A DNA stretch of 48,175 nt from Propioniciclava soli (GTDB taxonomy: Bacteria > Actinomycetota > Actinomycetes > Propionibacteriales > Propionibacteriaceae): assembly GCF_014858005.1 (NCBI RefSeq), contig NZ_JACYOT010000022.1, positions 1 through 48,175 on the forward strand. The letters run 5' to 3'. The first letter of the stretch is position 1, and each line of letters opens with the position of its first letter. Below the pieces are notes generated by a model, which did not search any database, was not told the DNA's origin, and saw nothing but the letters and a program-made list of their open reading frames with translations. Made by a program: the position numbers and the translations under genes. Of this stretch, positions 61 through 12,410 are shown one piece after another.

Positions 61-172
61 ACGGCAGGGTGGTGCGTTTCGAACAGGGCAGCGGTGCCAC
101 CGACAGGGGGGCGGCCGCAACGACAGGGAGTCGCAGTCTCAGCCAGGGTCGCGGCCGTCCGGGGCAGAGGAG
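61..172 (+). repeat. 20-bp-period degenerate repeat array (locus A)
   Basis: The motif CAGGG (last copy CAGAGG) starts at about 65, 84, 104, 124, 144 and 165, a period of 19-21 bp. The first part, with GCGACGGCAGGGT, GTGCG and ACAGGG in order, matches the start of the array at 12237-12410 almost base for base. Twenty is not a multiple of three, so frames through it shift from unit to unit and are unlikely to be protein. The array abuts the 52-bp array at 213-412. Confidence 0.75.
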
Positions 173-212
173 CTCACGGCCCGAGCCGCCGTCGGCGCGC
201 GATGCCGGCCCT

Positions 213-412
213 CTGCCGACAGGCCATGCACAAGCCCGGCTTCTCGACGCCCCCGCACCCATCTCCGTCGACCACCCAGGCACAAGCACGCCTTCTCGAC
301 GCCCCCGCGCCGATCCGCGTCGACAACCCATGCACAAGCCCCCCCTTCTCGAGCCCAGGCCCATCCGCGTCGACAACCCATGCACAAGCCCGCCTTCTCG
401 ACGCGGTGGACC
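213..412 (-). repeat. 52-bp-period tandem repeat array, four units (locus A)
   Basis: On the minus strand each unit carries a core CTTGTGCATGG flanked by TCGA/GTCGAC motifs. On the plus strand the cores start at 225, 277, 329 and 379 (spacing 52, 52, 50). One core is degenerate (277, CAGGCACAAGC). The GTCGA...TCGAC motifs around each core form a short inverted repeat. The same unit with the same period occurs in the opposite orientation at 11851-12042. No gene is supported in 1-519: the open frames here follow the repeats. Confidence 0.85.
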
Positions 413-519
413 CCCGCAACGCCAACGACGCCCCGCTCCTGTGCGGAGCGAGGCGCCGTGGTGCGCGATCAGATCAGACGAACCACCCGATTCGGGCGGC
501 GTCCGTCAGAGGGCACCGA

Positions 520-1539
520 TCAGGCGTGCGTGCCGACCGAACCGAGGTTCTGGCAGGCCTCGACGATGCGCTGGGCCATGCCGGCCTCAGCCTGCTTGCC
601 CCAGGCGCGCGGGTCGTACTGCTTCTTGTTGCCGACCTCGCCGTCGATCTTCAGCAGACCGTCGTAGTTGCGGAACATCCAGTCGACCACCGGGCGGCTG
701 AATGCGTACTGGGTGTCGGTGTCGATGTTCATCTTGATGACGCCGTACTTCACCGCGTCCGCGATCTCCTCCGGCGTGGAGCCGGAGCCGCCGTGGAACA
801 CCAGGTCGAACGGGCGCTCCTTGCCGTACTCGGCGCCGACGGCGTCCTGGATCTCCTTCAGCACGGCCGGGCGCAGCTTCACGGCGCCGGGCTTGTACAC
901 GCCGTGCACGTTGCCGAAGGTCAGGGCCGTGATGTAGCGGCCGTTCTCACCGAGGCCGAGGGCCTTGGCGGTGGCCATGCCGTCCTCGATCGTGGAGTAC
1001 AGCTTGTCGTTGATCTCGTTGGCGACGCCGTCCTCCTCGCCACCGACGACGCCGACCTCGATCTCGAGGATCTGCTTGTTCGCGGAGGTCTTCGCCAGGA
1101 GCTCCTCGGCGATCTGCAGGTTCTCCTCCAGCGGCACGGCCGAGCCGTCCCACATGTGGGACTGGAACAGCGGGTCCTTGCCGGCCTTCACGCGCTCGGC
1201 GGACACCTCTAGCAGCGGACGCACGTAGCCGTCCAGCTTGTCCTTCGGGCAGTGGTCGGTGTGCACCGCAATGTTGACGGAGTACTTCGCGGCCACGATG
1301 TGGGCGAACTCGGCGAGGGCCACCGCGCCGGTCACCATGTCCTTGACCTTCTGGCCGGACGCGTACTCGGCGCCACCGGTCGACACCTGAATGATGCCGT
1401 CGGACTCGGCCTCCGCGAAGCCCTGGATGGCCGCGTTGAGGGTCTGGGACGAGGTGATGTTGATCGCCGGGTAGGCGAAGCCCTTCGACTTCGCGCGGTC
1501 GATCATCTCCGCGTAGACGTCGGGAGTTGCAATGGGCAT
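520..1539 (-). CDS. fba: Class II fructose-bisphosphate aldolase
   Basis: The 339-residue protein cleaves fructose-1,6-bisphosphate to dihydroxyacetone phosphate and glyceraldehyde-3-phosphate in glycolysis and gluconeogenesis (cytoplasm). HTDHCPKD at residues 93-100 carries the catalytic Asp and a Zn-ligand His. FGNVHGVY, VFHGGSGST (phosphate/metal loop) and NIDTDTQYA follow in the family order. The length matches the long-type class II enzymes (about 340-345). The start is ATG with GGAG upstream. It stands alone, separated from the next gene by about 100 bp, and the repeat mosaic lies downstream. Confidence 0.96.
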   Translation of the reverse strand: MPIATPDVYAEMIDRAKSKGFAYPAINITSSQTLNAAIQGFAEAESDGIIQVSTGGAEYASGQKVKDMVTGAVALAEFAHIVAAKYSVNIAVHTDHCPKDKLDGYVRPLLEVSAERVKAGKDPLFQSHMWDGSAVPLEENLQIAEELLAKTSANKQILEIEVGVVGGEEDGVANEINDKLYSTIEDGMATAKALGLGENGRYITALTFGNVHGVYKPGAVKLRPAVLKEIQDAVGAEYGKERPFDLVFHGGSGSTPEEIADAVKYGVIKMNIDTDTQYAFSRPVVDWMFRNYDGLLKIDGEVGNKKQYDPRAWGKQAEAGMAQRIVEACQNLGSVGTHA

Positions 1540-1641
1540 GGTTGTGGTCTCCTGCCTGGAACGTTGATTCTGGCTCCTCCATTCAACCGCATTTCCCCCG
1601 GCTCGGCAGCCCGCCCGTCCAAACCGCCCAGGAGCGGTCGC

Positions 1642-2682
1642 TCAGTCGTCCAGACGGGTCAGGTCGAGCCAGGCCCGTCCTCCCGAGAGGGCGCGGATGG
1701 CCCCGTCGATGGACGCCGGCGTGGCGGCCAGGTGGTCCAACGGCAGCGTGTGATTCGCCCCGGACGCCGTGCGCACCACGAGGCGCGCGCTGCCGCCAAG
1801 ACGGCCGGGGTGGACGTCCAGCCCCGCGAGATCGGGCCAACGGACGAGGGTGTCGTCGAGGTACAGGCCGCCCCGGCCGATGCCGAGCGCGAGCCCCTCG
1901 TGCAGGGCGGCGACGGCGCGTTTCGCGCGGCGGAACTGCACCGCGGCCCACACGATCATCAGCACCGACACCCCGACGCTGATCCCCGCGATCCACCACG
2001 ACAGCGGCCCCCACTGCCAGCCGAGCGCATTGTCCGGCTCGCGGGTGAACCACCACAGGGCCGCCCAGATGACGAGGCTGAGCACCAGCGACACGATGCG
2101 GCCACGCAGTGCACCGCGCTGCTTGTGCCACCAGGCGACGGCGGGGGCGGGGTCGAAGAACACCGGGTGGTCCAACGCCTCGCTGGGGATCGGCTCGGGT
2201 CGCTCCAAGGTCGCGACGGCTGTGACGGACGCCGCCGGCTCCGGCGCCGCGGCGGCCGGCTCCGGGCCGGGCACCGGCTGGGTGGTCGGCGGCGGCCAGT
2301 CACCGACCGGGCCCGACCGCGTGGGCGGGCCAAACTCCAAGGGGGGCCAGGCCTGCTGAACCTGCCCGGGCGGCAGCCAGGCGTGCATGCCCTGCTGCGG
2401 CGCCTGGCCGGGCGGCCAGGCCTGCATGCCCTGCTGCGGCGCCGGCCACCCCTGTTGGCCCTGGTGGGGCGGCGGCCATGCGTGCGTCTGCTGGGGCGGG
2501 GGCCACCCTTGCTGGGGCGGGGGCCACGCCTGCTGAGCCTGCTGCGGCGGCGGCCAGCCCTGCTGACTTTGCTGAGGCGGCGGCCACCCCTGCTGACTCT
2601 GCTGAGGCGCCGGCCACCCCTGCTGCCCCGGGGCGGGCGGCGGCCATCCACCCGGCGGCGGGGCGGGGGGCGGCTGACTCAT
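1642..2682 (-). CDS. Pro/Gln/Trp-rich membrane protein with C-terminal PH-like region
   Basis: The 346-residue protein is of unknown function. Residues 1 to about 130 are a low-complexity cytosolic-type tail built from repeats of QQGWPPPQQ and variants. Two hydrophobic helices follow (around GRIVSLVLSLVIWAALWW and WWIAGISVGVSVLMIVW). The last ~90 residues (YLDDTLVRWPDLAGLDV onward) look like a small bacterial PH-type beta domain, which is an inference from pattern only. The start at 2682 is preferred over the ATG at 2691 because a -10 hexamer TAGCAT (2690-2695) lies exactly 7 nt upstream, a leaderless arrangement that would exclude the earlier ATG. Confidence 0.8.
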   Translation of the reverse strand: MSQPPPAPPPGGWPPPAPGQQGWPAPQQSQQGWPPPQQSQQGWPPPQQAQQAWPPPQQGWPPPQQTHAWPPPHQGQQGWPAPQQGMQAWPPGQAPQQGMHAWLPPGQVQQAWPPLEFGPPTRSGPVGDWPPPTTQPVPGPEPAAAAPEPAASVTAVATLERPEPIPSEALDHPVFFDPAPAVAWWHKQRGALRGRIVSLVLSLVIWAALWWFTREPDNALGWQWGPLSWWIAGISVGVSVLMIVWAAVQFRRAKRAVAALHEGLALGIGRGGLYLDDTLVRWPDLAGLDVHPGRLGGSARLVVRTASGANHTLPLDHLAATPASIDGAIRALSGGRAWLDLTRLDD

Positions 2683-2788
2683 GGCCGTCATGCTACCCAG
2701 CCGCTCCGACGATCCGGACCCGCGAGCCGCTCACCAGCCCGGGCCAGCCGCCACCAGCGCACGACGCCCCCTCCACGCGTCGGACGCC

Positions 2789-11733: not shown

Positions 11734-11784
11734 CTCAAACTCCGGGATTGGTGGCGGAGTTTGAGACAGAAGATGGAGTTTGAG
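11734..11784. repeat. 10-bp inverted repeat with a third copy of the arm
   Basis: CTCAAACTCC (11734-11743) and GGAGTTTGAG (11756-11765) form a perfect 10-bp stem with a 12-nt loop. GGAGTTTGAG recurs at 11775-11784. The site lies about 110 bp upstream of the alpha/beta hydrolase start and next to the repeat mosaic. It could be an alternative hairpin, an operator or the edge of a mobile unit; its role is not clear. Confidence 0.6.
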
Positions 11785-11850
11785 GGCGTCGAGGGAGCTG
11801 CGGGGCGTCCGTGCGGCCGCCAGAGGGCATTCAGCATCCGGCATCTCGAC

Positions 11851-12042
11851 GAGGCCGACTTGTGCATGGGTTTCTCGACGCACTCCGGGTGGCTGGCGTC
11901 GACGAGGCCGACTTGTGCATGGACTCTCGACGCAATCCGGGCGGCTGGCGTCGACAACGCCGACTTGTGCATGGACTCTCGACGCAATACGGGCGGCTGG
12001 CGTCGACAAGGCTGGCTTGTGCATGGGTTCTCGACGCGAGCG
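11851..12042 (+). repeat. 52-bp-period tandem repeat array, four units (locus B)
   Basis: The units start at 11851, 11904, 11956 and 12008 (53, 52, 52 bp, last partial). Each carries GGC/GCCGACTTGTGCATGG, then CTCGACGC, a ~12-nt variable piece, GGCTGGC and GTCGAC. Units two and three differ at only a few bases. The same family with the same period is at 213-412 on the other strand. The region 11622-12512 (890 bp) holds no supportable gene and consists mainly of this array and the 20-bp arrays. Confidence 0.88.
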
Positions 12043-12100
12043 GCGCCTGCAGCAGCAGCCCTTACGCGGTGACGCCTCGGCATGGAAGCAGCCGGGCCCG

Positions 12101-12212
12101 CAAGCCCTGCCCGCACCGCCCGGGGGGCAGCGTGCGAGAGAGTCCCCCTGCCGATGCCCTCGCCGCCCTGCCCAAGGGCTCGCCTCCCTGCCCATCCCTC
12201 CGCCGCCCTGTT
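12101..12212 (-). repeat. 20-bp-period array, inverted orientation (locus B)
   Basis: CCCTG occurs at 12146, 12166, 12186 and 12206, exactly 20 bp apart, with an earlier copy near 12105. It is the reverse complement of the CAGGG motif of the array that follows at 12237, so the two arrays face each other. Confidence 0.7.
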
Positions 12213-12236
12213 CGAAGCCAACCTCCCCAGCGTTGC

Positions 12237-12410
12237 GACGGCAGGGTCGTGCGCGTCGGACAGGGAGGCGGCGGTTGGGGCAGGGACGCGGCAGTACCGG
12301 CAGGGAAGACGCGGCAGTACCGGCAGGGGGGAGGCAGTACCGACAGGGGGGCGGCAGTCAGGACAGGAGGCGGCAGTACCGGCAGGGACGCGGCGGTTAC
12401 CGCAGAGCGC
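12237..12410 (+). repeat. 20-bp-period array, direct orientation (locus B)
   Basis: CAGGG (or CAGGA/CAGAG) starts at 12242, 12261, 12281, 12301, 12324, 12344, 12364, 12383 and 12403, a mean period of about 20 bp. The common unit is GCGGCAGTACCGGCAGGG. The first two units (GCGACGGCAGGGT, GTGCG, ACAGGG) correspond closely to the start of the array at 61-172. Confidence 0.8.

Follow-up and report, generated by a model that had tools for sequence, protein, structure and literature searches.

Plasmid iterons are direct repeats of 19-22 bp, with inverted copies sharing half-sites, and the MIRU and similar mycobacterial intergenic minisatellites are dispersed tandem repeats of about 50 bp. Nearest in kind to the arrays described here is the REPIN-RAYT system (excerpts of PMC3116915 and PMC8049555), in which repetitive extragenic palindromic (REP) sequences accompany a tyrosine transposase, while CGTC REPs are apparently without a dedicated transposase, according to parts of PMC3733652. 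In AbiE type IV toxin-antitoxin systems the AbiEi proteins autoregulate, and their promoters hold inverted repeats to which they bind, as set out in a portion of PMC7319586. The present work concerns phased motif arrays in a 48,175-nucleotide stretch of Propioniciclava soli DNA (contig NZ_JACYOT010000022.1, C15 in our numbering, hereafter the window), which belongs to a genome of 3.8 Mb in 65 contigs, and an AbiEi-like gene elsewhere in that genome. At least four families of such arrays, F1 to F4, lie between its genes. The main one, F1, is a dyad array in which copies of CAGGGnGG(T/C)G run outward both ways from a GTTGCAAC axis (GTTG|CAAC).

The reading we favour, with reasonable though far from full confidence, is that a single chromosomal protein, AbiEi-like and with a winged helix and a C-terminal PD-(D/E)XK-type (DUF559-like) domain, has F1 as its dispersed repeat population. 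Like a REPIN-RAYT system, this would combine a chromosomal gene with nearby repeats, dispersed extragenic copies, several families per genome and a preference for convergent gaps; unlike it, the place of the tyrosine transposase is taken by an AbiEi-like protein that bears a PD-(D/E)XK-like domain, and F1 forms an open 19/20-bp lattice. With AbiE it shares the winged-helix AbiEi domain and the inverted repeats beside the gene, but the protein has an extra C-terminal nuclease-type domain, no adjoining toxin gene and repeats throughout the genome. The repeat period is that of plasmid iterons, a likeness judged by spacing alone, whereas F1 is chromosomal, occupies dozens of loci and has two arms in each complete dyad. 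In the open-licence literature searched we met no description of the F1-F4 arrays or of an AbiEi-DUF559 protein with dispersed repeats.

F1 and an AbiEi-like gene between its dyads

Loci are given L-numbers and the other genomes compared G-numbers, and genes were called with our own simple codon-usage gene finder, not with a standard annotator. The genome harbors 33 complete F1 dyads and four halves at contig ends (three found by the F1 model, the fourth at the end of contig C54), and the model also gives a few partial matches. Figures for arms, spacers and unit counts come from 30 of the 33 complete dyads (60 arms), namely those in fetched loci that depart from the core pattern at no more than one position, and the sequence model (R2) was built from 29 of these. 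The lattice is regular: in 49 of 60 arms the first interval measures 19 bp, and of the 258 later intervals 200 measure 20 bp. The number of units per arm ranges from 2 to 19 (median 6), while 2323 of 3000 planted controls hold a single one. Anchored on the axis (n = 30), the dyads keep the motif through the third unit and beyond, and parts of the spacers fall to background.

Exact F1 cores are found in two of 13 Propioniciclava genomes. The sister species G008 has seven dyads with the GTTGCAAC axis but with AGGGAAGTG-type units, spaced by 19 bp in 27 of 28 intervals, and F1 is a family common to both genomes whose motif has drifted. Beyond P. soli the model finds one weak dyad (E 7e-4), in G054, a member of another genus; the remaining 55 genomes searched are without a match.

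When the neighbours of the G008 dyads are compared with the F1 loci, a single place is shared, beside the polynucleotide phosphorylase (PNPase) gene. One gene, orthologous between them, stands there in both genomes, coding for 316 amino acids in P. soli and 311 in G008 (57% identical), with a dyad on each side; the P. soli copy lies outside the window, at L035:879-1826 on contig C8. Its product matches the AbiEi_4 winged helix (PF13338) at 28.9 bits, the cut-off being 25 and the G008 protein falling below it, and the PADLOC AbiEi model at E 9.5e-12. The C-terminus, with DFAW..GEFDGAVK, is presumably PD-(D/E)XK-like; E198, E202, D235, E246, D248 and K252 are invariant over eight members. G054 has a 40% identical homologue about 240 bp from its single F1 dyad, with a 3' gap too short for the bracketing test. 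Dyads lie upstream of the gene in all three genomes. The neighbouring genes differ: PNPase and an AMP-binding enzyme in P. soli, PNPase and DapB in G008, ribosomal protein L7/L12 and a TetR-type protein in G054. A gene for the AbiEii nucleotidyltransferase toxin adjoins it in none of the three. The P. soli protein had no match in 50,697 phage records, and no relative was confirmed in viral contigs.

Searching by protein similarity yields further homologues, one in G020 and five in plasmid-labelled records (three of Tsukamurella tyrosinosolvens, one of Collinsella aerofaciens and one of Arthrobacter); two of the Tsukamurella records look chromosomal, since they carry ribosomal-protein or secretion genes. 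Both flanks can be read in five homologues, and four of these are bracketed by a single motif of their own. L271 (Tsukamurella) has GGGGGA blocks every 19-22 bp downstream and the same blocks upstream, L274 (Tsukamurella) has CGCTGCCG at 19-21 bp with inverted copies, L272 (Collinsella) has TGTTACAGATCGAGACA half-sites forming dyads 42 bp apart that repeat every 80-81 bp, and L278 (Arthrobacter) has a GGCATTTGATGACA dyad, imperfect downstream. L271 and L274 are paralogues of one genome, 55% identical, and their repeats are unrelated.

The number of 9-mers shared between the two flanks is 27 for the P. soli gene, 20 for G008, 51 for L271, 32 for L274 and 32 for L272. Arthrobacter shares five, the windows cutting off part of the downstream dyad, and its bracketing was read from the sequence. 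Control genes share a mean of 3.2 in P. soli (34 genes), at most 3 in Tsukamurella (3 genes) and at most 12 in Collinsella (14 genes). The motifs also recur away from the homologues. The Collinsella dyad occupies 26 places in its 0.9-Mb record and matches none of the collection's other records; that of Arthrobacter occupies 13, which are confined to two records of that strain. Six Tsukamurella records contain the L271 array, at 15 places altogether (the best match beyond its own record having E 5e-21); the array also matches 12 records of other genera, two of these, among the matches listed, at E 7. Weak scores for the L274 motif occur in 81 records of other organisms, at E 0.2-8 among the matches listed.

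Several observations weigh against a partnership of protein and repeats. The genes of P. soli, G008 and G054 provide no independent test, since they were found through their dyads. The G020 homologue is not bracketed, its flanks sharing one 9-mer, and L273 has a 3' gap too short to test and just two palindromes upstream. Some control genes with long gaps score high, up to the 21 reached in P. soli, and in other Propioniciclava the controls average 13.4, with long unannotated gaps reaching 128 (38 genes). The L274 motif recurs weakly, at three places in its own record and one in each of two others. Concerning the protein, DUF559 matches only two of the eight members (E up to 1), one of them over the cut-off, and no relative of known structure was found by sequence. 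For F2, F3 or F4 no partner protein was found in the part of the genome read.

The bracketed gene and its bracketed distant relatives suggest an unrecognised partnership of a protein and a repeat population. That the AbiEi-like protein binds F1 would follow from the neighbourhood of gene and repeats in four lineages (Propionibacteriaceae, Tsukamurella, Collinsella and Arthrobacter). It may also make new F1 copies, a less secure proposal to which the invariant residues and the lineage-specific spread point.

Arrays in the window and elsewhere in the genome

The features of the window are as follows.

1..58, + strand: end of a repeated (IS-like, i.e. insertion-sequence-like) element, cut by the contig start; it also starts contig C4 (98% over 62 bases)
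59..168, + strand: F1 half dyad of locus A, one arm, CAGGG at 65, 84, 104, 124 and 144
215..403, - strand: F3 array of locus A, four 52-bp units at 215-249, 266-301, 318-352 and 368-403
520..1539, - strand: class II fructose-bisphosphate aldolase gene (fba), gene call, Pfam F_bP_aldolase E 4e-77; locus A is on its 3' side
10773..11621, - strand: alpha/beta hydrolase gene, gene call, left of locus B and with its 5' side towards it
11734..11784, no strand: F4 dyad, CTCAAACTCC and two GGAGTTTGAG copies 19 bp apart
11845..12036, + strand: F3 array of locus B, four 52-bp units, spacing 53/52/52
12146..12235, - strand: F1 left arm of locus B, outward from the axis, CCCTG at 12146, 12166, 12186 and 12206
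12225..12246, no strand: F1 dyad core of locus B, CCCCAGCGTTGCGACGGCAGGG, axis 12235/12236
12236..12387, + strand: F1 right arm of locus B, CAGGG at 12242, 12261, 12281, 12301, 12324, 12344 and 12383

The initial annotation had placed a 20-bp and a 52-bp module in each of two loci, A (61-412) and B (11851-12410). Both modules are present there, and each locus holds four 52-bp units as it said, on the minus strand in A and, at 53/52/52 spacing, on the plus strand in B. Coding repeats, which it had discounted, are rejected here too, the gene finder calling no gene over A or B. Its geometry needs revision: the 20-bp arms of B do not face inward but run outward from the dyad at 12235/12236, and locus A is a half dyad broken at its axis. 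Nor do the modules keep a fixed relative orientation. They belong to separate families, and where an F1 dyad lies no more than 1 kb from F3, as at eight loci, F3 reads towards it in five and away from it in three (by our own reading).

F3 joins a 34-bp core, GTCGACAA-(GGCGGGCTTGTGCATGGG)-TTGTCGAC, to a linker of about 18 bp, which varies from locus to locus; core and linker together set GTCGAC sites every 26 bp and keep the 52-bp period. The F3 model matches the genome 51 times over 18 loci, one place being counted on both strands, and under strict filters it matches nowhere in the 56 other genomes of the family that were searched; the core pattern matches 15 times in the genome versus 0 for the reversed pattern; hence, F3 is not a product of chance. 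An F1 dyad lies within 1 kb of 8 of the 18 F3 loci (chance about 1e-4 against gaps of at least 300 bp) and is missing within that distance from the other 10, which does not sustain the single composite element first proposed: F3 is a family separate from F1 and often its neighbour. The idea of a dispersed intergenic element is itself borne out by the 33 complete dyads and four halves of F1 and the 18 loci of F3. Further copies in the same genome, whose absence had been named as telling against it, were sought and found.

The comparison with MIRU and BIME sequences survives as an analogy. F3 resembles MIRU in being a dispersed intergenic tandem repeat of about 50 bp in an actinobacterium, but it keeps its 34-bp core with unrelated linkers between loci, and has an F1 dyad nearby in the loci just mentioned. 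No GTAG or CGTC REP tag, as defined in the relevant part of PMC3733652, is seen at the GTTGCAAC axis of the 30 anchored dyads, and the protein found with F1 is not a RAYT. REPs and REPINs lie mainly between unidirectional or convergent genes, as do 25 of the 30 dyads by our gene calls. The F3 cores begin with CGTCGAC but have no REP-type stem of 8-9 bp with a loop of 4-5 bases (same part of PMC3733652).

F2 (CACGTGGCGCA) repeats the 19/20/20 geometry of F1 with an unrelated motif, its sites lying at 0, 19, 39 and 59 outward from the first site. The F2 set comprises the 15 dyads in the fetched loci with at most three mismatches to the F2 pattern. F2 unit pairs number 76 in the P. soli genome; they are found in 0 of 12 congeners and in 2 of 184 other genomes of the family. 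F2, F3 and F4 are probably families in the same style with other proteins.

At L029:941-2176 a pair formed by an F2 and an F1 dyad flanks a 183-amino-acid gene on both sides, in similar copies about 1 kb apart, so that two dyads of each set are copies inside this one locus; it is the clearest recent duplication among the dyads. F4-like sequences (CTCAAACTCC/GGAGTTTGAG, 19 bp) adjoin F1 or F2 in L051, L082 and L229. Tandem GC-rich repeats (GGGGGCGCAGCCCCCACGCCACCAGCGGTGGGG) make up the end of contig C65 (L041 and L034 to L031, contig ends).

Similar arrays are seen elsewhere in the family. The congener G001 has other 20-bp arrays in convergent gaps, with TGTCAACCGGC and GGGCGGTTCGTCGCAA units (L119:10910-12739 and L121:14549-14900), and the congener G004 has 22-bp GGGGCTGTCGGCGCTCAAACTC-type arrays in both orientations (L137:14060-14215 and 17815-18026). 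In other genera, L161:5216-5696 (G016) and L168:8416-8596 (G025) show arrays with a 19-bp period (GGGTCGAACCGGCAGCCGC) and a small dyad array, also of 19 bp (CGGTCCGGGCATCG / CGATGCCCCGACCG), and G082 has a 21-bp tandem array holding the F2 motif (GCGCCACGTGCCCTGAGCCTT) in a divergent gap (L089:1436-1858).

A final point concerns broken axes. Contig C4 opens with a sequence nearly equal to window positions 1-58, and in either case an F1 arm follows at the dyad axis; the start and end of contig C54 share another, nearly identical 52-bp end that enters an F1 arm likewise, the two end types aligning imperfectly over about 40 bp. Four contig ends in all (window 1-58, C4 start, C54 start and C54 end; L229, L230 and L041) thus switch to an F1 arm exactly at the axis. 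The simplest reading of these joins would be an insertion element that uses the dyad axis as its target and whose body is missing from the assembled sequence; REPs are known as insertion-sequence targets, according to an excerpt of PMC1525189. In plasmid records the end 1-58 gives only three 24-base matches at E 7, and in the P. soli genome a weak match (E 0.06) beside an IS110-type transposase remnant, on which we do not rely.

DNA sites and competing explanations

To judge from the pattern of conservation, the arrays are DNA sites and not structured RNA, as the motifs are conserved, the spacers random between loci and the arms without covariation. Neighbouring units within an F1 arm are identical at 0.87 of their motif positions but at 0.57 of those in the spacer (interval for the difference 0.23-0.37), which slippage alone, rejected with the lattice intervals also weighed, would not give. 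Between loci the F1 spacers agree at 0.441, the column composition leading one to expect 0.451, and at this level they retain no trace of common descent. Their complementarity within a locus is no greater than between loci (p 0.45-0.59), hence no long stem is maintained, and the F2 arms likewise lack extra complementarity (p 0.91). The F3 core could fold, but at one pair of its stem 19 of 32 units are unpaired, and its covariation score is equalled or exceeded in 482 of 500 shuffles. Rfam has no match at gathering score in the window.

If the AbiEi-like protein does bind F1, two molecules would meet head to head at the dyad, with further ones binding outward about every two helical turns, and the sites beside the gene would give the autoregulation published for AbiEi. 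Its nuclease-type domain might help new copies to arise, for example through breakage and repair from an array, and copies would persist mainly where harm is small.

Among the rival explanations the best placed, itself unlikely, is that the arrays are operator or boundary elements of the host, which the protein coats near gene ends so as to separate transcription units or shape the nucleoid, the gene being an autoregulated source and no copying taking place. Both the constraint on the motif and the presence of at least two units in every analysed arm would suit such a role. So would gap orientation, since the 30 dyads lie in 14 tandem, 11 convergent and 5 divergent gaps, compared with 103, 24 and 60 among 187 sampled gaps, a background that includes stretches fetched because they bear F1; the convergent excess has p 0.0025. 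The divergent gaps, however, also hold dyads, not significantly fewer than expected (p 0.13). The genes next to the arrays, moreover, are housekeeping genes unrelated to one another, and most of the relatives' gaps compared lack the arrays. Five array-bearing gaps measure 348-840 bp, versus 49-201 bp in relatives (six comparisons), with L031 against G008 going the contrary way, the gap being longer in the relative; on the 3' side of fba, the place of locus A, no array was seen in nine relatives, two periodicity scores just exceeding ten shuffles. The arrays thus appear to have been mostly gained in this lineage, and an operator or boundary role leaves the origin of dozens of copies in one lineage unexplained.

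We regard it as still less probable that F1 dyads are miniature mobile elements (a REP, a miniature inverted-repeat transposable element or an IS derivative) of an ordinary transposase, with the AbiEi-like gene there by accident. Their copies are indeed dispersed, lineage-specific and extragenic, and a repeated IS-like end stands at the axis of several dyads, yet the outer ends are not fixed, the arms running from 2 to 19 units; the same bracketing, with other motifs, also recurs at four of the five homologues that protein similarity brought up. Structured RNAs, which the initial annotation had offered as an alternative, bidirectional terminators being one kind, and which the palindromic dyad cores, many of them near gene ends, could recall, can be set aside almost entirely, the F1 and F2 arms being complementary in nothing beyond the motif, the F3 stem lacking covariation and Rfam finding nothing in the window.

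With the partnership of AbiEi-like protein and F1 as the preferred reading, a wider proposal can be made more tentatively, at somewhat less than even confidence. There may exist a second, transposase-independent bacterial system of protein plus repeat population, spread from Coriobacteriia to Propionibacteriales, in which every AbiEi-like protein with a PD-(D/E)XK-type domain has a dyad or array motif to itself. The motif would often lie on a lattice with a step of some two helical turns and would be copied about the chromosome with the aid of the nuclease domain. As the two Tsukamurella paralogues diverge in motif, protein and motif would chase each other, each species ending with its own set.

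The makers of many bacterial dispersed intergenic repeats are unknown, and a gene bracketed by the repeats themselves offers a testable binder or maker. It would also give a possible role to AbiEi-like genes without an adjoining toxin, and the protein-motif pairs may serve as a set for studying how DNA specificity evolves.

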